From: a virus
Virus record (IMG/VR): IMGVR_UViG_3300007735_000475
Coordinates: 1 to 21,688 of that record
Length of the DNA stretch: 21,688 nt
Direction: 5' to 3' (one strand)
Each line of letters starts with the position of its first letter. The first letter of the stretch is position 1. The position numbers and the translations under genes were made by a program. This document shows positions 7,073-21,382 of the stretch, piece by piece. The notes under the pieces are model-generated. The model saw only the letters and a list, made by a program, of their open reading frames with translations, made no database searches and had not been told where the DNA came from.

Positions 7073-7155
7073 AGTCAGGTAATGCGTAATGTGGAAACGG
7101 CATCACATCCGATAAAAAGGTTGCATTGTTGGGGGTTCGAATCCTCTCCTGACTA
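7073..7155 (+). tRNA. Aberrant tRNA-like element A
   Basis: Has tRNA ends: acceptor AGTCAGG/CCTGACT, T arm GGGGG/CCTCT with loop TTCGAAT, D-like stem ATGC/GCAT. The core does not give a normal anticodon arm; the best is CATCC/GGTTG with an eight-base loop GATAAAAA. One of four elements in the window with the same AGTCAGG start. Anticodon not assigned. Confidence 0.55.
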
Positions 7156-7310
7156 CACGGTCTGACTAATCATCAGATAGTATGTCCAATACGATGAGAA
7201 GTAGGTTGATTACCTATATGGAACTTCTGATAGGGAAACGCTCTATCTGGTTTAACTAACCACGGGAAATACCAAAGAGATGCGAAGAACAACGTGCTCT
7301 CATAGTTAAT
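7156..7310 (+). ncRNA. Structured non-coding RNA segment
   Basis: No gene. Several nested complementary stems in order: TCATC/GATGA enclosing GTAT/ATAC, AGAAGT/ACTTCT enclosing TAGGT/ACCTA, GATAGG/TCTATC, GGTT/AACC. Such density is unlikely by chance in AT-rich DNA. It directly follows tRNA-like A, so it is probably cotranscribed. Identity unknown. Confidence 0.5.
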
Positions 7311-7319
7311 ATTAAAATT

Positions 7320-7406
7320 ATGAAAAAGATATATTGGTTTTTTTGGTGGGTGTATAATTACCCCGACATAGTTTGGATGAAGATTAAATCACATTTCAAA
7401 AAATAA
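7320..7406 (+). CDS. 28-aa Trp-rich micropeptide
   Basis: ATG 7320, TAA 7404-7406. The product begins MKKIYWFFWWVYNYP and ends basic (KIKSHFKK); five Trp in 28 residues. It could be a membrane-active or membrane-anchored peptide. Evidence is only the frame and an A-rich upstream region, so confidence is limited. Confidence 0.4.
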   Translation: MKKIYWFFWWVYNYPDIVWMKIKSHFKK

Positions 7407-7408
7407 AT

Positions 7409-7439
7409 TTGGTGAATTGAAAAACTCACCGTAGATTTG
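7409..7439 (+). promoter_or_regulatory. Bacteroidetes-type promoter for structured RNA
   Basis: TTG (7409-7411), 20-nt spacer, TAGATTTG (7432-7439). A GGTGA/TCACC hairpin (7411-7430) lies in the spacer. Next downstream is a non-coding structured region, not a gene. Confidence 0.6.
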
Positions 7440-7446
7440 TAGAAGT

Positions 7447-7692
7447 TCTTTGAAAGATATAAAAATATTGATAGTGGATTTTCCCACTCAACGGATGTCG
7501 ACAATCCAGAGTGGAATCGGAAATCAGCACCCTCAGCCAAGGCCTTGTAAAACTTCAACAAAGCTGTTAAGATTGGGACGAGACGGGTATCCCAACACTA
7601 TCAACAATATTGTGTTGTTCCCTTGAGAAAGGAATTAGTTGGTAGGTCATCCAGTTATGACACAACACAGAGGACTTCTCATCCTCAAACAT
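7447..7692 (+). ncRNA. Multibranched structured RNA with long-range stems
   Basis: No protein frame of note. Long-range TTGATAGTG (7468-7476) pairs with CACTATCAA (7596-7604). TGTGTTGT (7611-7618) pairs with ACAACACA (7662-7669) and encloses TTCC/GGAA and GTCAT/ATGAC hairpins. AGTGG/CCACT overlaps the 5' side and GAGGA/TCCTC (7670-7686) precedes the next tRNA-like element by six bases. It begins just after a promoter. Size and position among phage tRNAs recall ornate large RNAs (GOLLD, ROOL), but I cannot match sequence. Confidence 0.6.
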
Positions 7693-7936: not shown

Positions 7937-8046
7937 AGTCAGGTGGCGGAATTGGTCACCAAATAGCAGTAGCAGACACTACATAAAAATTGGCCGAATG
8001 TCAACGATACCAAAAGCTATTGCAGGTTCGAATCCTGTCCTGACTA
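7937..8046 (+). tRNA. Aberrant Leu-like tRNA element C with insertion
   Basis: 110 nt. Acceptor AGTCAGG/CCTGACT and T arm GCAGG/CCTGT are normal. The D region starts as a Leu tRNA (TGGCGGAATTGG) but continues with an insert after the GG pair. The core holds AATAGC/GCTATT enclosing GTAG/CTAC and TTGG/CCAA hairpins. Too long for an ordinary class II tRNA. Could be a tRNA with inserted hairpins or a tRNA mimic. Confidence 0.5.
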
Positions 8047-8258
8047 CAATGAGTAAGAGATGCTCAACGGTCTTCGAATCAAGACCTAAAGAATGATTCC
8101 GCAGAATGTCTACGGCGCGAGTGGGACATCGTGGGATGAAGGGACTGACACAATCCCTCCCAGTAGTGTTGGATGTTTTTAACGGGTAAGACCAGCAGGT
8201 TTTTAAGAAATAGAAAACCGATATATCTACTCACTTGGAATCTCAAGGTGGGGAACTT
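8047..8258 (+). ncRNA. Structured non-coding RNA domain
   Basis: No gene. TGAGTA near 8050 pairs with TACTCA near 8230, closing a domain that contains GGTCTT/AAGACC, TGGGA/TCCCA stacked on GGGA/TCCC, and GGTTTT/AAAACC. An additional GATTCC/GGAATC match crosses the closing stem and could form a pseudoknot. It lies between tRNA-like C and tRNA-Ser. Confidence 0.5.
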
Positions 8259-10073: not shown

Positions 10074-10099
10074 TGTTTCTTAGTTTGTGTCTTATCAGA

Positions 10100-10106
10100 T
10101 ATTTAT
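10100..10106 (+). promoter_or_regulatory. TATTTAT element upstream of T9SS-domain gene
   Basis: TATTTAT begins 11 nt before the ATG at 10111, the same spacing class as in the ITE-tagged genes. Links this secreted-type protein to the same expression class. Confidence 0.5.
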
Positions 10107-10110
10107 CTGC

Positions 10111-11688
10111 ATGAGACAAATTCTATTCCTCCTATTACTAATCCCCAATCTAATACTTGCACAATGTGCTGGGGTTCCATCTTTTACATTAAATCCTGCA
10201 CCTGTTAATGGTAACTACGAACCTGGAACTGTTGTAACTATGTGTTACACTTTGAATGGTTGGGACACAGGGTTTGGGTCAAATTGGCTTGAAGGTTTTA
10301 GTATTAACTTGGGACCTGGTTGGGCATCTTACACACCTATATCAGGACCTGATGATTGTGGAGGAGCAACACCACCACAAGGATGGTTATGGATGGAAAG
10401 TGTTACAAACAATTCAGGAACACTTACTGTTGGACCTGGTTATTTTTATGAAGGACCACAAGGACCTACCGATGGAAATCCGGGAAATGATTGGGGTGAT
10501 TTAGGGACAAATTGTTTATGGACTTTTTGTGTTCAGTTACAAGTATCTGATGAATGTAATCCTTTGTCATTGTTAATTGAAGTTACACCTTATGCTGATG
10601 GAACGATGGGAAGTTGGAGTAATGAATCTTGTTTTGACGGACCATTTCAGGTGTTTAATGGAATAATTGCTGGAGGAACTGTTGATACATCACCAATATC
10701 ACACGTTATGGATACAGTTTGTGTTGGACTAATTCAAAATTATTCTGTTGTTAACACACCCGGTTCAACATACGAGTGGAGTGGAACTGGTGGGTATTTT
10801 GGAATTGACCAAGACAGTTCAAATATTGCTGATGTGTATTGGGGAGCTTGGCCGGGAACTTATACATTATTTGTTCAGGAAACAACCGCTGAAGGTTGTG
10901 TAGGTGAAGAAGTATCTTTAGATATCACAGTTGTTGATACATTAATAATATTTGGACAACCAAGAACAGGTATTTGTTTGGGTGACACTACAAAATTATT
11001 TGCATCGCCATCAGGTGGGTTTTGGTCAGGTGAAAATATGGAAGGTGATGTCTTTACTGCTTACAACTCAGGAACTTACTACCCAACTTATTTTGTCAAT
11101 ATACACGGATGTCCTGTTGCTGATTCAGTTGAAGTTTTTGTTAGAGAACCATTTTACGCTCCAATAATTAACACAACACTATTAGATGTTGATTTGTGTT
11201 TAAACTCACCTGAACAATTCTATTATGCTACTGAAGAAGTTGGTGTTGAATACACATGGCATGTTGATGGTGTGTTACAAGAAGATACAGATTTTGAACT
11301 ATATCAGAATTGGTATGACACAACCATGTTACATACCATTACGGTTTATGGGACAGATACAATTGGATGTGAAAGTGAACTTGGTTATATATTAATTGAT
11401 GTTGAGGCATGTCACAGATTATTTGTTCCAATATCATTCACACAAAATGGTGATGGGTATAATGACGCATTTAAAATTGTTGGAGAATCAATATATGAAC
11501 CACATATGAAAATATTCAATAAAGATGGTATGGTTGTGTATGAAATTAAATCAGTTACACAAACTTGGAACGGTAATGATGGTACAGGATATTTTTGTCC
11601 AAATGGAGTTTATAATTGGGTTATGACTTATAGGGACGATAGAGGAATTGGTCACACACAAAAAGGTCATATTGTTTTGATTCGTTAA
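10111..11688 (+). CDS. Secreted protein with T9SS type B / gliding-motility C-terminal domain
   Basis: 525 aa from MRQILFLL; an upstream ATG at 10087 would spoil the signal peptide. Residues 1-18 are a signal peptide (hydrophobic core ILFLLLLIPNLILA). The body is beta-rich, with Ig-like stretches rich in Cys, Gly, Trp and Thr. Residues about 434-525 match the gliding-motility-associated C-terminal domain (CHU_C, TIGR04131): FTQNGDGYNDAF, then IFNKDGMVVYE, W-N-G, G-Y-F-C-PNGVYNW and a terminal GHIVLIR. In Bacteroidetes this domain directs export by the type IX system and surface attachment. In a phage it could be displayed on the infected cell or be an adhesion or exclusion factor. It may also have been acquired from the host. 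Confidence 0.85.
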   Translation: MRQILFLLLLIPNLILAQCAGVPSFTLNPAPVNGNYEPGTVVTMCYTLNGWDTGFGSNWLEGFSINLGPGWASYTPISGPDDCGGATPPQGWLWMESVTNNSGTLTVGPGYFYEGPQGPTDGNPGNDWGDLGTNCLWTFCVQLQVSDECNPLSLLIEVTPYADGTMGSWSNESCFDGPFQVFNGIIAGGTVDTSPISHVMDTVCVGLIQNYSVVNTPGSTYEWSGTGGYFGIDQDSSNIADVYWGAWPGTYTLFVQETTAEGCVGEEVSLDITVVDTLIIFGQPRTGICLGDTTKLFASPSGGFWSGENMEGDVFTAYNSGTYYPTYFVNIHGCPVADSVEVFVREPFYAPIINTTLLDVDLCLNSPEQFYYATEEVGVEYTWHVDGVLQEDTDFELYQNWYDTTMLHTITVYGTDTIGCESELGYILIDVEACHRLFVPISFTQNGDGYNDAFKIVGESIYEPHMKIFNKDGMVVYEIKSVTQTWNGNDGTGYFCPNGVYNWVMTYRDDRGIGHTQKGHIVLIR

Positions 11689-12005: not shown

Positions 12006-12024
12006 AAAATTCGTTGTATATTTG
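11994..12024 (+). promoter_or_regulatory. Bacteroidetes-type promoter
   Basis: TTG (11994-11996), 20-nt spacer, TATATTTG (12017-12024), eight bases before the ATG at 12033. The -33 element overlaps the previous stop region. Confidence 0.7.
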
Positions 12025-12032
12025 TGAAAGAA

Positions 12033-12428
12033 ATGAAAATCCAAAAAATGAATATTATGAGCAAAAAAAACAAAAAACAAAACGCTGAGTTGATTGAGCG
12101 TATTAATGAACTTCAATCACAATTAAATGATATTAAATCCGACGCTGGTATGGAAGTTGAGGAAGGGAACATCGTATTCACAAGAGAACAACTTGAAAAC
12201 TTCTTGGTTGAATACACCAACAAAGTAAATCAGTATATCTTTGACGAAGTGGCTAACTCATTAGATTCTGATGAAATTGTGACTGTTGATGTTGATGGTC
12301 GTGAAATCACTACTTATGTTGATGAGGACAAATTGAGGGATGCATTCATTGAAGCAACTGAAGGTGTTGAATCAGACATCATCATGGAATATGCTGATGA
12401 AGCAATGTCTGAAGTCGGACTAATCTAA
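12033..12428 (+). CDS. Acidic, coiled-coil-containing unknown protein
   Basis: 131 aa if starting at MKIQKMNIM; an alternative start at 12057 (MSKKNKKQN) would leave a longer leader. Residues about 15-35 (ELIERINELQSQLNDIK) are a coiled coil; the rest is very acidic (many D and E), with repeated VDVDGREITTYVDEDKL-like hydrophilic segments. No catalytic motif. Its last codons contain GAAGTCGGACT (12411-12421), the same 11 bases found at the end of the downstream structured RNA. Such acidic small phage proteins often act as inhibitors or DNA mimics, but nothing here proves that. Confidence 0.6.
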   Translation: MKIQKMNIMSKKNKKQNAELIERINELQSQLNDIKSDAGMEVEEGNIVFTREQLENFLVEYTNKVNQYIFDEVANSLDSDEIVTVDVDGREITTYVDEDKLRDAFIEATEGVESDIIMEYADEAMSEVGLI

Positions 12429-12434
12429 TTTTAA

Positions 12435-12919
12435 AATAAGACCCCACAATACCGTTTATCTGCGGTTGGACAGTGTGAACCTGGCGGGAAGGCTCCAAGG
12501 CTATGGGGGAGGCTACACAGAACGTGAAATACATATAGCACTACTTAATCGGTGTTAATTGGTTTGGGGAAGTTCAACCAAGTATGATAGGGAACAATGA
12601 ATTAGATACCCTCGTTATGGATTAAAAGGGTTAGGGGCTTTAAGTAGTCGTGTTAAAATCCACAAGTTGTAGACGTACTGGACAAATCTACAATATACAC
12701 TCTTCTTCCGAGTGGGACGGTCAGGTAACTTTGACGGTAGGGTGAAGATGTCCTGAGGGTAACCCTGTAATACGGGTGAGAGTAGAGGTCTTCGGTGGAT
12801 GGTTACTACGGTCCCACTCTCTTGGGACATATCCGAAGAAATACTATATTGGTGAATCTAATAAAACAAGTCCGACTCGTGAAACACCACACGGATAGGG
12901 AAGTCGGACTTACCTTTTT
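12435..12919 (+). ncRNA. Large ornate structured RNA (about 470 nt), candidate novel class
   Basis: No convincing gene. Long perfect stems: ACTACTTAA (12540-12548) with TTAAGTAGT (12640-12648); TTGTAGA (12667-12673) with TCTACAA (12687-12693); GAGTGGGAC (12710-12718) with GTCCCACTC (12811-12819); AAGTCCGACT (12868-12877) with AGTCGGACTT (12902-12911), the last followed by a short T run like a terminator. TCTTCGG (12789-12795) can pair with CCGAAGA (12833-12839) across the 9-bp stem, a possible pseudoknot. ACCG/CGGT and GTCA/TGAC hairpins add branches. Its size and its place beside phage tRNAs recall ROOL and GOLLD RNAs; it is not recognised by sequence, nor as RNase P, tmRNA or rRNA. Confidence 0.65.
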
Positions 12920-13473: not shown

Positions 13474-13549
13474 GAAGAAGTAGCTCAGTAGGTAGAGCAT
13501 AGGGTTCGAAAGCCCTTGTGCCACGTGGTTCGATTCCCGTCTTCTTCAC
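13474..13549 (+). tRNA. tRNA-Arg(UCG), anticodon tentative
   Basis: Acceptor GAAGAAG/CTTCTTC, D stem GCTC/GAGC, T loop TTCGATT, discriminator A. The anticodon arm AGGG/CCCT encloses an eight-base loop TTCGAAAG, so the anticodon is TCG (Arg) or CGA (Ser); the class I body and A discriminator favour Arg. The T stem carries one bulged T. Confidence 0.68.
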
Positions 13550-15733: not shown

Positions 15734-16582
15734 ATGGAAACAACACTAATCTTTGTCTTCGCTTCTGTTGTTATAACAACACTTAGCCTAAATTTTGGGT
15801 TTAACAACCTTTTGGGTAAAACTCGAAATGAACTTGTATTTGAAAACAAGAATAAATCTTATGGGGCATACGATTTAAGAAAATCTTATGGTAAGAATCT
15901 TGGAATTTCATTGTTTATAACATTGATTGTCGTAACTATGATTTCTTGGACACCATACCTTGTTAATGACACTGAAGAAAAAGTTAACACGACAAATATC
16001 ATATCAACTGAAATGTTACTACCACCACCTGTGGATAAACAGATGGAAGAGTTACCGCCACCTCCTCCTCCGGTTGAAGAAGTTAAAAAAGCTTCTATCC
16101 AATTTACAACAATAGAAGTTACTGAAGAAGAAATTTTAAATCCACCTCCAGCGGATACCGAAATGGATAGGAAGAAAATTTCTACAGAAACTGTTGAGGG
16201 GGAAGAGGGATTACTTAACCCAACCGAAAACACAAATACACCTGTTGATATTGTCCTTAAAAAAGAAAATGCAATAACATTCGCCGAGGAAATGCCAAAG
16301 TACCCTGAAGATAAGATGTATGAAGATTTGGCGAAAAATATAGTATATCCCGAAAGAGAAAAAACATTTCAAATTGAAGGGACTCTTTATATTAGTTTTG
16401 TTGTTGAAAAAGACGGTAGTGTAAGTGAAGTTCAAGTAATTAGAGAAGTTGAAGAAGGTAAAGGTTTTAATAATACCGCAATAAATGCTGTAAAAAACTT
16501 AAAAAACTTTACACCGGCCAAGATGAATGGGAACCCTGTTAGATTGAGAATGACAATACCAATAAGATTTAGTTTAAGATGA
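15734..16582 (+). CDS. tonB: TonB-family energy transducer
   Basis: 282 aa. In order: hydrophobic segment about 5-20; the Bacteroidetes TonB motif FENKNKSYGAYDLRKSY (36-52); membrane anchor about 57-75; proline-rich spacer with LPPPPPPVEEV (108-117); and a C-terminal TonB domain (185-282) containing MPKYPEDK, the beta-strand block YISFVVEKDGSVSEVQVIREV and a terminal IPIRFSL. TonB links the proton-driven ExbB/ExbD motor to outer-membrane receptors in the periplasm. The extra first hydrophobic segment is unusual. No exbB or exbD is present. A phage copy could alter receptor use or block superinfection, or be captured host DNA. ATGA overlap with the next gene implies translational coupling. Confidence 0.85.
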   Translation: METTLIFVFASVVITTLSLNFGFNNLLGKTRNELVFENKNKSYGAYDLRKSYGKNLGISLFITLIVVTMISWTPYLVNDTEEKVNTTNIISTEMLLPPPVDKQMEELPPPPPPVEEVKKASIQFTTIEVTEEEILNPPPADTEMDRKKISTETVEGEEGLLNPTENTNTPVDIVLKKENAITFAEEMPKYPEDKMYEDLAKNIVYPEREKTFQIEGTLYISFVVEKDGSVSEVQVIREVEEGKGFNNTAINAVKNLKNFTPAKMNGNPVRLRMTIPIRFSLR

Positions 16583-17837: not shown

Positions 17838-17843
17838 AAAATG

Positions 17844-17988
17844 CTCAGGTGGCGGAAGTGGGACAATTCTAGATATTATCCCCTGGTAGACGTAACGTAT
17901 GGTTATAGCAACGTGGGTTAAAAATCACCTGAACAAGGTGTGGCCACTATAATGGCAGCCCGTGGAGGTTCAAATCCTTCTCTGAGTA
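17844..17988 (+). tRNA. Aberrant Leu-like tRNA element D with hairpin insertions
   Basis: 145 nt between acceptor GCTCAGG/TCTGAGT and T arm GGAGG/CCTTC (loop TTCAAAT). The D region begins TGGCGGAAGTGG like tRNA-Leu, then a hairpin insert GGGACAAT/ATTATCCC, then TGGTAGAC resumes. Further hairpins: TAAC/GTTA, CACCT/AGGTG, GCCA/TGGC. A possible anticodon arm GTGG/TCAC has the eight-base loop GTTAAAAA. Anticodon unassigned, perhaps UAA. Confidence 0.55.
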
Positions 17989-18058
17989 CAAACCAACCAA
18001 GGGCAATGCGGGCTCATACCTGCGGAGCAAGGAGACGGCCAGGAAAGACTGGCAACAT
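17989..18058 (+). other. Structured spacer between tRNA-like elements
   Basis: No gene. Hairpins GCGGG/CCTGC (18008-18023, loop CTCATA, resembling an initiator anticodon arm) and GCCAG/CTGGC (18038-18053). Possibly part of a larger precursor RNA with element D. Confidence 0.4.
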
Positions 18059-19648: not shown

Positions 19649-19675
19649 AACCCCATTCTTTGAGTGGGGTTTTTT
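19649..19675 (+). terminator. Rho-independent terminator
   Basis: ACCCCA/TGGGGT stem (about 19650-19655 with 19665-19670) then six T. Ends the tRNA-Tyr and structured-RNA transcript. Confidence 0.85.
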
Positions 19676-19686
19676 GTTTTTATTTG

Positions 19687-19693
19687 TATTTAT
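19687..19693 (+). promoter_or_regulatory. TATTTAT element, first paralogue
   Basis: TATTTAT starts 13 nt before ATG at 19700; the following AATAATATG is identical to that before the third paralogue. Confidence 0.55.
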
Positions 19694-19699
19694 AATAAT

Positions 19700-20035
19700 A
19701 TGAAATACGTTATTACTGAAACACAATTATATAGAGTGGTCTTTCGTTATTTGGATATTCATCGGTTTAAAACTTTTGAAACTGCGGAGAATATATATTT
19801 TATGGAATTAATTGATGGTGAATTTTCAGAGATTACATATGATAAAAAAGATAAGTTCTGTAGCGTTGATACAAAATTACTTAGATTAATTACGGATTTC
19901 TTTTCGTTACCTCATGACTTAAAAGATGCTAGAGTAATTATTGGTAAATGGGTTGAATATACCCTTCAGATGGAAGTTAATAATGTATGGCCGTCAAATA
20001 AAGGTGGAATTACTGCATTAAGAGTTGAAAAATGA
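19700..20035 (+). CDS. ITE-tagged paralogue 1 of 5
   Basis: 111 aa from MKYVITETQLYRVVF; an upstream in-frame start at 19664 lies in the terminator and is rejected. Same plan as the next four: N-terminal tag, a YL...F segment, IYF, then E-I-(T/R)YDK, a C-x-V/I-D strand, LI...FFSLP and a final W-V-E. The most divergent of the five. Its stop overlaps the start of the next gene (ATGA), implying coupling. No outside family recognised. About 110 aa alpha/beta protein of unknown role. Confidence 0.75.
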   Translation: MKYVITETQLYRVVFRYLDIHRFKTFETAENIYFMELIDGEFSEITYDKKDKFCSVDTKLLRLITDFFSLPHDLKDARVIIGKWVEYTLQMEVNNVWPSNKGGITALRVEK

Positions 20036-20343
20036 AATACCTTATAACAGAATCACAATTTGATAAAGTAATCTTTAAATACTTAAATAATCAGGACTTC
20101 GTTCAGATTGAAAGGGGCAGGAATATATACTTTGTAAATTCAGAAAATGACAAATATGCTCAAATTAGATATGATAAAGAAGATGGATATTGTTTTATTA
20201 ATTTTGATTTAATTAGTGAAATTTCTTCCTTTTTTCCCTTAAATGAAAGTGATTCTGAAGAAGTTATTGGTAGATGGGTTGAGAATACCACCAAAAATAA
20301 GGTTACAAACACCTACGGTGCCTGGCGGCCCCGTTTGATGTAA
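20032..20343 (+). CDS. ITES paralogue 2 of 5
   Basis: 103 aa beginning MKYLITESQFDKVIFKYLNNQDF. Conserved middle YFVNSENDKYAQIRYDKED and C-terminal SSFFPL...EVIGRWVEN. ATGA overlap with paralogue 1; no own TATTTAT element. Tandem duplication origin is clear from residue identity with copies 3-5. Confidence 0.8.
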   Translation: MKYLITESQFDKVIFKYLNNQDFVQIERGRNIYFVNSENDKYAQIRYDKEDGYCFINFDLISEISSFFPLNESDSEEVIGRWVENTTKNKVTNTYGAWRPRLM

Positions 20344-20364
20344 GTTGAGAATACCCAAATAACA

Positions 20365-20371
20365 TATTTAT
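20365..20371 (+). promoter_or_regulatory. TATTTAT element, third paralogue
   Basis: TATTTAT starts 13 nt before the ATG at 20378, with the same flanking bases as the element at 19687. Confidence 0.55.
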
Positions 20372-20377
20372 AATAAT

Positions 20378-20710
20378 ATGAAATACCTGATAACAGAATC
20401 TCAATTTGATAAAGTAATCTTCCGATATTTGGATAATCAGGATTTTATTCAGATTGATGGGGAGGAGGAAATATACTTCGTTAATTCAGAAGGTGATGAA
20501 TATGCTCAAATTAGATTTGATTATGATATCCCTTGGGTTGGGATGTCTGATAATTTGTGTAAGGAAGTCTCTTCTTTCTTTTCTATATCTAAAGAAGATT
20601 CTCAAAAAATTATAGGTTTGTGGATTAAACACAAATTTAAAATAAGTGATGTAATGGTTGTTCAAAGTTATTTAAGAAATGAGGTACCCATTTTAATGGT
20701 TCCTTATTAA
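20378..20710 (+). CDS. ITES paralogue 3 of 5
   Basis: 110 aa beginning MKYLITESQFDKVIFRYLDNQDF. Shares YFVNSEGDEYAQIRFD with its neighbours; the later part diverges (CKEVSSFFSISKEDSQKIIGLW) and ends with a short unrelated tail. Follows paralogue 2 by 34 bases. Function unknown. Confidence 0.8.
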   Translation: MKYLITESQFDKVIFRYLDNQDFIQIDGEEEIYFVNSEGDEYAQIRFDYDIPWVGMSDNLCKEVSSFFSISKEDSQKIIGLWIKHKFKISDVMVVQSYLRNEVPILMVPY

Positions 20711-20717
20711 TATTTAT
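20711..20717 (+). promoter_or_regulatory. TATTTAT element, fourth paralogue
   Basis: TATTTAT starts 12 nt before the ATG at 20723 and immediately follows the upstream stop codon. Confidence 0.5.
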
Positions 20718-20722
20718 CTTAT

Positions 20723-21034
20723 ATGAAATACCTGATAACAGAATCACAATTAGATAAAGTAATCTTTAAGTATCTTGACAATCAGGACTTTATTGTAATT
20801 AAAATGAAGAATAGGTTATATTATGTCAACTCTGAAGGTGATGAATATGCTCAAGTTAGATATCATCCGAAAGATAGATGGTGTACAATACACTATGACT
20901 TGGTTGAGGAAATCGGCAATTTCTTTTCTTTGGACACTTATCAATCAATTGGTGTAATTAATAGATGGATTGAAAATAAACTAGGAATTAAATCCATTAA
21001 TGTGGAAGTTGCAAGTCCAATTGTTGGTTATTAA
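20723..21034 (+). CDS. ITES paralogue 4 of 5
   Basis: 103 aa beginning MKYLITESQLDKVIFKYLDNQDF, with YYVNSEGDEYAQVRY and GNFFSLDTYQS...VINRWIENKL. Clearly homologous to copies 2, 3 and 5. No membrane segment or signal peptide. Function unknown. Confidence 0.8.
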   Translation: MKYLITESQLDKVIFKYLDNQDFIVIKMKNRLYYVNSEGDEYAQVRYHPKDRWCTIHYDLVEEIGNFFSLDTYQSIGVINRWIENKLGIKSINVEVASPIVGY

Positions 21035-21037
21035 TTA

Positions 21038-21044
21038 TATTTAT
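21038..21044 (+). promoter_or_regulatory. TATTTAT element, fifth paralogue
   Basis: TATTTAT starts 12 nt before the ATG at 21050. Confidence 0.5.
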
Positions 21045-21049
21045 CTCAT

Positions 21050-21382
21050 ATGAAATACCTAATAACAGAATCTCAATTTGATAAATTAATCTTTAAGTAC
21101 CTTAATAATCAGGATTTTATTGTTACAGGTAATGATACAAGTTTATTCTTTATTAATTCAGAAAGTGATGAGCTTGCTCAAATTAGATATGATGAAGATA
21201 GAGGTGTTTGTTTTATTAATATCGATTTAAATAGAGAAATTTCTTCTTTCTTTTCTTTAGGACGAGACGAATCCCAAAGAGTTATCAGTAGGTGGGTTGA
21301 AAATACCTTACAAATGAAAGTTACAAAAACCACCGACGCATATAGGAATATTGACCAGTGGTTGAGAATACCCTCCAATTAA
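21050..21382 (+). CDS. ITES paralogue 5 of 5
   Basis: 110 aa beginning MKYLITESQFDKLIFKYLNNQDF, with FFINSESDELAQIRYDEDRGVCFINIDL and EISSFFSLGRDESQRVISRWVENTLQMKV. Closest to paralogue 2 in the middle segment. Last of the array; a folded leader and another gene follow. Confidence 0.8.
   Translation: MKYLITESQFDKLIFKYLNNQDFIVTGNDTSLFFINSESDELAQIRYDEDRGVCFINIDLNREISSFFSLGRDESQRVISRWVENTLQMKVTKTTDAYRNIDQWLRIPSN

Follow-up and report, generated by a model that had tools for sequence, protein, structure and literature searches.

What is encoded between positions 12435 and 12919 of the window, the 21,688-bp IMG/VR virus record that holds 24 tRNAs (ARAGORN)? The original prediction placed an ornate, tRNA-associated candidate RNA of about 470 nt in this stretch, on the grounds that it contained no plausible gene and several perfectly complementary segments. 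We found that the absence of a plausible gene holds, as the longest open stretch in the RNA region is 80 codons and the indels among its homologues disregard every reading frame. The region is also GC-richer than the surrounding DNA. The complementary segments are all present, to the base: one of 10 bp (12868-12877/12902-12911), two of 9 bp (12710-12718/12811-12819 and 12540-12548/12640-12648) and two of 7 bp (12789-12795/12833-12839 and 12667-12673/12687-12693). Three perfect pairings of at least 9 bp were observed against 0.37 expected, and none of 100 dinucleotide shuffles reached three. Folded singly, the sequence had an ordinary energy (MFE z -0.2; both strands were folded and nothing unusual appeared), so the case for an RNA rests on comparison.

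Homologues were gathered through flanking proteins and through DNA patterns from conserved blocks, and nhmmer was used to tell true relatives from chance pattern matches. The gene directly upstream (12024..12428, plus strand) encodes a 134-aa protein of no known family, which neighbours the RNA in the window group and is not conserved as a neighbour elsewhere. A search with this protein gave nine related loci, eight of which carry the RNA whole or, owing to a contig end or a deletion, in part; the DNA of these is alignable and 79-98% identical over the aligned part, and in the ninth, L002, the contig stops before the RNA. Altogether, the RNA is present at 83 loci on 73 other IMG/VR contigs, some of them 185-321 kb long, with a single copy per record in 15 of 15 records. 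With short flanks the homologues measure 427-558 nt, and their identity to the window RNA falls from 95% (L003) to 55-57% (L093 and L086). In the window, the conserved span revealed by nhmmer and blastn runs from GACCCC to the 3' end of helix P15 (12440-12911, plus strand, about 472 nt), and a covariance model matched 12658-12915 with 263 bits. Comparison with these homologues upheld the candidate and confirmed the predicted conserved non-coding RNA gene at 12440-12911.

Searches elsewhere gave no further members among the matches listed. In isolate phage genomes, three diverse members of the family gave no match to the RNA, the rows listed being tRNA parts. A pattern search of prokaryote genomes gave ten matches, all of which were rejected (nhmmer similarity in 0 of 10); in the four that were inspected (L042, L043, L048 and L050), the resemblance was confined to the pattern itself. 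A covariance-model search of 396 sampled genomes of one prokaryote phylum, run without a positive control, found none. A weak covariance-model match in L187, L204 and L219 (23.9 bits) was rejected, lying in L187 inside an 815-aa gene. The last pattern scan gave no new homologue among the matches listed.

Covariation in homologues, which the original prediction had proposed as a check, is strong. The full alignment contains 53 distinct full-length sequences. In alignment A2 (43 sequences, covering the 3' part at 12658-12915), 94.3% of cells form standard pairs, compared with 37-47% when the partners are slid, and 53 of the 67 pairs have undergone double-sided changes. The covariation score was 0.542, against 0.195 for shuffles and 0.09-0.12 with partners slid, and 0 of 500 shuffles attained either the pairing or the double-change level. 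Alignment A3 (16 sequences, 12440-12673) gave a similar picture for the 5' part: 94.7% of cells pair, with a score of 0.308 against 0.04-0.09 when partners are slid. We also ran an all-pairs test, which was a tree-based, R-scape-like G-test with APC and a substitution-preserving null rather than R-scape itself. It returned 18 column pairs with E<0.1, all of them base pairs of the model helices except two (12652/12656 and 12792/12900). Tests within the structure supported 40 pairs, a figure that errs on the high side, since these sequences also served to draw the structure. Judged from this comparison of sequences, it is near certain that the predicted structured RNA family is real.

The predicted architecture is a chain of pseudoknots, with K1 before P6, K3 before P8, K4 between P10 and P11, K5 in the terminal stem and K6 upstream of it (all features lie on the plus strand). 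Covariation shows pairing of a loop with a distant strand for P2, P6, P8, P13 and P16, and at least five such predicted loop pairings are supported. Hairpin P2 (12451-12454/12463-12466), which is misaligned in A3 and 98% paired in the other alignment, has double changes in three of four pairs, with 12453-12464 at E<0.02 in the all-pairs test. Its loop forms K1 with a distant strand (12457-12460/12605-12608); all four pairs are doubly changed (TATC/GATA, ACTC/GAGT and ATCC/GGAT are among the variants), and 88% of cells pair, or 97% in A3. K3 (12618-12622/12658-12662; 99% paired) involves the loop of hairpin P6 (12609..12630; 100% paired, double changes in 2/4 pairs), and three of its adjacent pairs are doubly changed in L086 and L093. 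Hairpin P7 (12636..12649) is 99% paired with double changes in 3/4 pairs. Hairpin P8 (12666..12694; 100% paired, double changes in 6/8 pairs) contributes its loop to K4 (12680-12684/12749-12753), in which four of five pairs have changed on both sides, 12681-12752 reaches E 0.033 in the all-pairs test, and GGACA/TGTCC alternates with AGACA/TGTCT and GAACA/TGTTC. P9 (12698-12702/12710-12714; 100% paired) and P10 (12720-12723/12732-12735; 84% paired) have two double-change pairs each.

P12 (12789-12795/12833-12839) is 99% paired with double changes in six of seven pairs, and hairpin P13 (12811..12828), also 99% paired, has them in all six. The P13 loop pairs with a strand inside P15/P16 to form K5 (12818-12822/12897-12901; double changes in 5/5 pairs), and an upstream strand pairs with the P16 loop to form K6 (12850-12854/12885-12889; likewise 5/5); 12818-12901 and 12853-12886 each have E 0.017 in the all-pairs test. 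K5 occurs as TCTCT/AGGGA, GAATC/GATTC and GTATC/GATAC. P15 (12868-12877/12902-12911; 96% paired) is doubly changed at ten of ten pairs and P16 (12878-12881/12890-12893) at four of four. Thus, three of the segments first noted, the 10-bp stem (P15) and both 7-bp stems (P12 and TTGTAGA/TCTACAA within P8), are maintained by compensatory changes. This does not hold for the two 9-bp stems: only 66% and 64% of their cells pair, and P5a, P7, P9 and P13 take their place. Similarly, the claim that the RNA is pseudoknotted is borne out by covariation, but the pseudoknots are different from the crossing that had been proposed.

At the 5' end, P1 (CCCCA/TGGGG, 12442-12446/12504-12508; 100% paired) crosses both K2 (GTGT/ACAC, 12473-12476/12515-12518), whose 3' strand runs on from P4, and P4 itself (12491-12494/12511-12514). 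P1 is invariant apart from a single compensatory change of CG to UA in L114, and K2 is nearly invariant, without covariation; the invariance of both is partly due to one search pattern having contained GGCTATGGGGGA...ACAC, which includes the ACAC of K2. In P4, the pair 12492-12513 occurs as GC, UA, AU, GU and UG. A further knot formed by P1, P4 and K2 is therefore a prediction supported by few changes. Hairpin P3 (12480..12500) is 98% paired, with double changes in two of five pairs.

Whole domains vary at two sites, 12519-12604 and P11. The first is an optional peripheral domain (12519..12604) built as a three-way arrangement of P5 (12532-12535/12583-12586), P5a (12537-12541/12552-12556) and P5b (12559-12564/12576-12581), with double changes in 11 of 15 pairs. 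It is present in the window group and in L034, L038, L041 and others and absent from L024, L036 and L086; in L079, L090 and L095 an unrelated domain occupies its place. The second, P11 (12762..12777; double changes in 3/4 pairs, 12764-12775 at E<0.02 in the all-pairs test), is either a short hairpin or, in many homologues, an arm of about 60 nt. Other parts hardly vary: a possible extra loop pairing of GTAAC (12725-12729, in the P10 loop) with GTTAC (12802-12806) and the candidate helix P12a (12781-12784/12804-12807) are nearly invariant and mutually exclusive, and long invariant tracts that are apparently unpaired include CACAAG, GTAACT, CTGAGG and GGATGGTTACTA. A 16S-like word, ATTAGATACCC, near 12601-12611 occurs only in the near relatives of the window and was taken to be a chance match. 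In a single contig, L010, the 5' two-thirds of the RNA (about 340 nt) are missing and the 3' third remains. This deletion (L010:4400-4560), natural or by assembly, creates an AAGACC-CCGA-GGTCTT junction ahead of P12; the missing part may be dispensable, or L010 may be misassembled.

Because a tRNA often starts 0-5 nt after P15, the 3' stem, first noted as lying before a T run, more probably belongs to the fold than acts as a terminator. The T run is separated or absent in many homologues, and a G+C-rich stem followed directly by a T run, as in an intrinsic terminator, was not generally found among them.

The proposed location among tRNAs extends to most of the family. A same-strand tRNA lies at most 100 nt from the RNA in 26 of the 53 homologues and at most 3 kb away in 46, and the strand is always the same. 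Many copies are followed by a tRNA within 0-5 nt of P15, and four are preceded by one whose end lies 3-5 nt away. The neighbouring genes, those for proteins included, vary between phages both upstream and downstream (tRNAs, a ClpP-like gene and unknown genes downstream). Downstream in the window, a tRNA with an unusual and apparently enlarged (8-nt) anticodon loop (13474..13549, plus strand) was called '???' (cgaa) by ARAGORN; its relatives, which have Phe-like GAA or 8-nt loops, directly follow the RNA in several homologues.

Several other elements were seen in these regions. In many phages, another conserved element (AGAGAACCGTGAGTCCGCGGATGGAAACAAC...CATACTCT, about 60 nt) immediately precedes the large RNA on its 5' side; it occurs at L052:2442-2481, L062:1895-1934, L064:1099-1138, L070:4614-4653 and some ten other loci. 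The stem that closes it covaries (TAGAG/CTCTA, TGGAG/CTCCA, TAAAG/CTTTA); the element was not seen in the window and had no Rfam match in L062 or L075. Non-coding stretches between tRNAs at 7400-7690 and 8048-8258, conserved in as many as 25 and 13 related loci, respectively, are possible further small RNAs, and the sequence from 8048 onward resembles a stretch in L063. At 7076-7160, 7940-8046 and 17843-17990, tRNA-like ends (GTCAGGTGGCGGAA... GGTTCGAATCCTGTCCTGACTAC) surround extra sequence with no ARAGORN call, possibly representing interrupted or degraded tRNAs. The region 19664-21382 holds five tandem paralogous genes of 103-123 aa that start with MKY(L/V)ITE(S/T)Q, and other window genes start similarly.

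The records that carry the RNA have 9-37 tRNAs each, on contigs of up to 321 kb, and 11 of 15 contain a T4-type major capsid gene (gp23). By capsid, Flavobacterium phage immuto and Rhodothermus phage RM378 are among the nearest isolates. TAnnTTTG boxes, a Bacteroidota promoter element, lie 20-24 nt upstream of the RNA in L034, L059, L082 and L089. The capsid relatives and these boxes point to a Bacteroidota host, and further hints come from two phage genes in the window, one with a type IX secretion C-terminal domain (CHU_C; 10087-11688) and one with a TonB C-terminal domain (15734-16582). The carriers are thus T4-like jumbo phages that probably infect Bacteroidota.

No known family in Rfam 15 matched the RNA. 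Against Rfam 15 (4227 families), the window matched only tRNAs above the gathering score, with nothing over the RNA; in sensitive mode, the best sub-threshold match to the region was MicC (E 4.7, other strand). Eight homologue loci likewise had no match over the RNA at E<=1. The ROOL, GOLLD, OLE and HEARO models, which the original prediction had singled out for comparison, were among those tested. GOLLD and ROOL, which phages encode near tRNA islands, assemble as homo-oligomeric cages made of RNA only (PMC12286853). Like them, the present RNA is a phage gene near tRNA islands, and it has the length, elaborate covarying structure and pseudoknots of a large ornate phage RNA. It shares with GOLLD (RF02032) the same genomes and a modular variable part with a steadier 3' part, and with ROOL (RF03087) the multiple pseudoknots; ROOL occurs in phages and prophages and has no known protein partner (PMC12286853). 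However, at about 470 nt it differs from GOLLD, which is often >800 nt and assembles as a 14-mer cage (PMC12286853), and from ROOL env-120, an octamer of about 659 nt. OLE, HEARO and raiA are also large structured RNAs, from bacteria, but are not known as phage tRNA-island RNAs and do not match it in Rfam; OLE and HEARO possess protein partners (PMC12286853). Freshwater-1 RNA (RF02979), a structured RNA of the same kind of phage tRNA array, is unrelated and only 62 nt long; one sub-threshold match to it lies 0.5 kb downstream of the RNA in L063. We found no description of this RNA in the open-licence literature, and it is very likely undescribed.

The likeliest explanation for these findings is that 12440-12911 encodes a trans-acting, multiply pseudoknotted large non-coding RNA of T4-like jumbo phages, a structural RNA that would be made with the tRNAs and work like GOLLD and ROOL during infection; we give this reading a probability of roughly 0.55. 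The RNA would be expressed within the tRNA-island transcript and freed as the neighbouring tRNA ends are processed. As tRNAs abut it by 0-5 nt, its ends are probably made by the enzymes that process tRNAs. It would then fold compactly, with most of its hairpin loops paired to distant strands, and all of these pairings seem feasible in a single chain. It may act as a scaffold or particle in the manner of GOLLD and ROOL, sharing their habitat but probably not their ancestry. Its size, 427-558 nt with short flanks and smaller than GOLLD, counts against this likeness, and it may have a protein partner or a catalytic role. More tentatively, the RNA might be an RNA-only particle of a class separate from both GOLLD and ROOL, deployed from tRNA islands and, in many genomes, alongside GOLLD.

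The dense pseudoknots and the long invariant tracts, apparently unpaired, look like a functional core, and the RNA is embedded in tRNA arrays. It could therefore be the core of a monomeric RNP or a ribozyme, folding alone or on a phage protein and cutting, ligating or modifying RNA such as tRNA precursors or host rRNA. We consider this unlikely, as the RNA matches no Rfam model of group I or II introns, RNase P or any ribozyme and no neighbouring protein is conserved. It is also rather improbable that the RNA is a regulator in trans that ties up host RNA polymerase, ribosomes or a regulatory factor, in the way of 6S RNA or a sponge. A free-standing gene with a stable fold would suit such a role, and GOLLD is reported to pull down ribosomes (PMC12286853), but the structure far exceeds what a sponge needs, lacks a 6S-like open-complex shape and has no Rfam match.

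The shared kind of phage, tRNA-island location and pseudoknots would also be expected of a divergent member of GOLLD or ROOL. This is very improbable: GOLLD had no match in the RNA at E<=5 in the window or at E<=1 in the eight homologue loci, and no sequence similarity went beyond chance-like matches of 17-23 nt. Moreover, of the 15 carrier genomes, 7 contain true GOLLDs that the same GOLLD model detected (312-328 bits); these are separate loci, 6-29 kb away from this RNA on the same strand, so the predicted RNA is a separate ornate phage RNA and not a GOLLD. ROOL had no covariance-model match in the window, the homologue loci or the 15 carrier genomes, the last of these scans giving no positive-control match either. 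In the GOLLD regions L237:8240-8647, L238:1513-1918, L239:1554-1962 and L240:7853-8267, the opposite strand carries a tmRNA gene at a distance of about 0.1-1.1 kb, and the tmRNA of L237 also has a group I intron beside it.

In the window the RNA sits between two genes, and L010 is without about 340 nt of it, as might be expected of a cis-acting leader or a self-splicing intron. This reading is hardly credible, because the upstream and downstream genes differ between phages; in addition, the RNA often lies between tRNAs, there are no conserved exons or splice sites, and L010 retains the 3' third. Intron and riboswitch-like readings were rejected on this variable context. Chance complementarity in ordinary intergenic DNA, which the MFE z-score of -0.2 would allow, is refuted by the covariation.

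GOLLD and ROOL are RNA-only assemblies (PMC12286853) larger than the ribosome, and why phages keep such RNAs is a standing question. A further RNA of this kind, with no sequence relation to them, a model built on covariation and a home in the same genomes as GOLLD, turns this into a comparative question, namely, what need tRNA-rich jumbo phages have for such RNAs. At about 470 nt and with most of its loop contacts predicted, the RNA is tractable for probing and cryo-EM. If the RNA-only particle reading is true, one phage would make two unrelated ornate RNA assemblies per infection.
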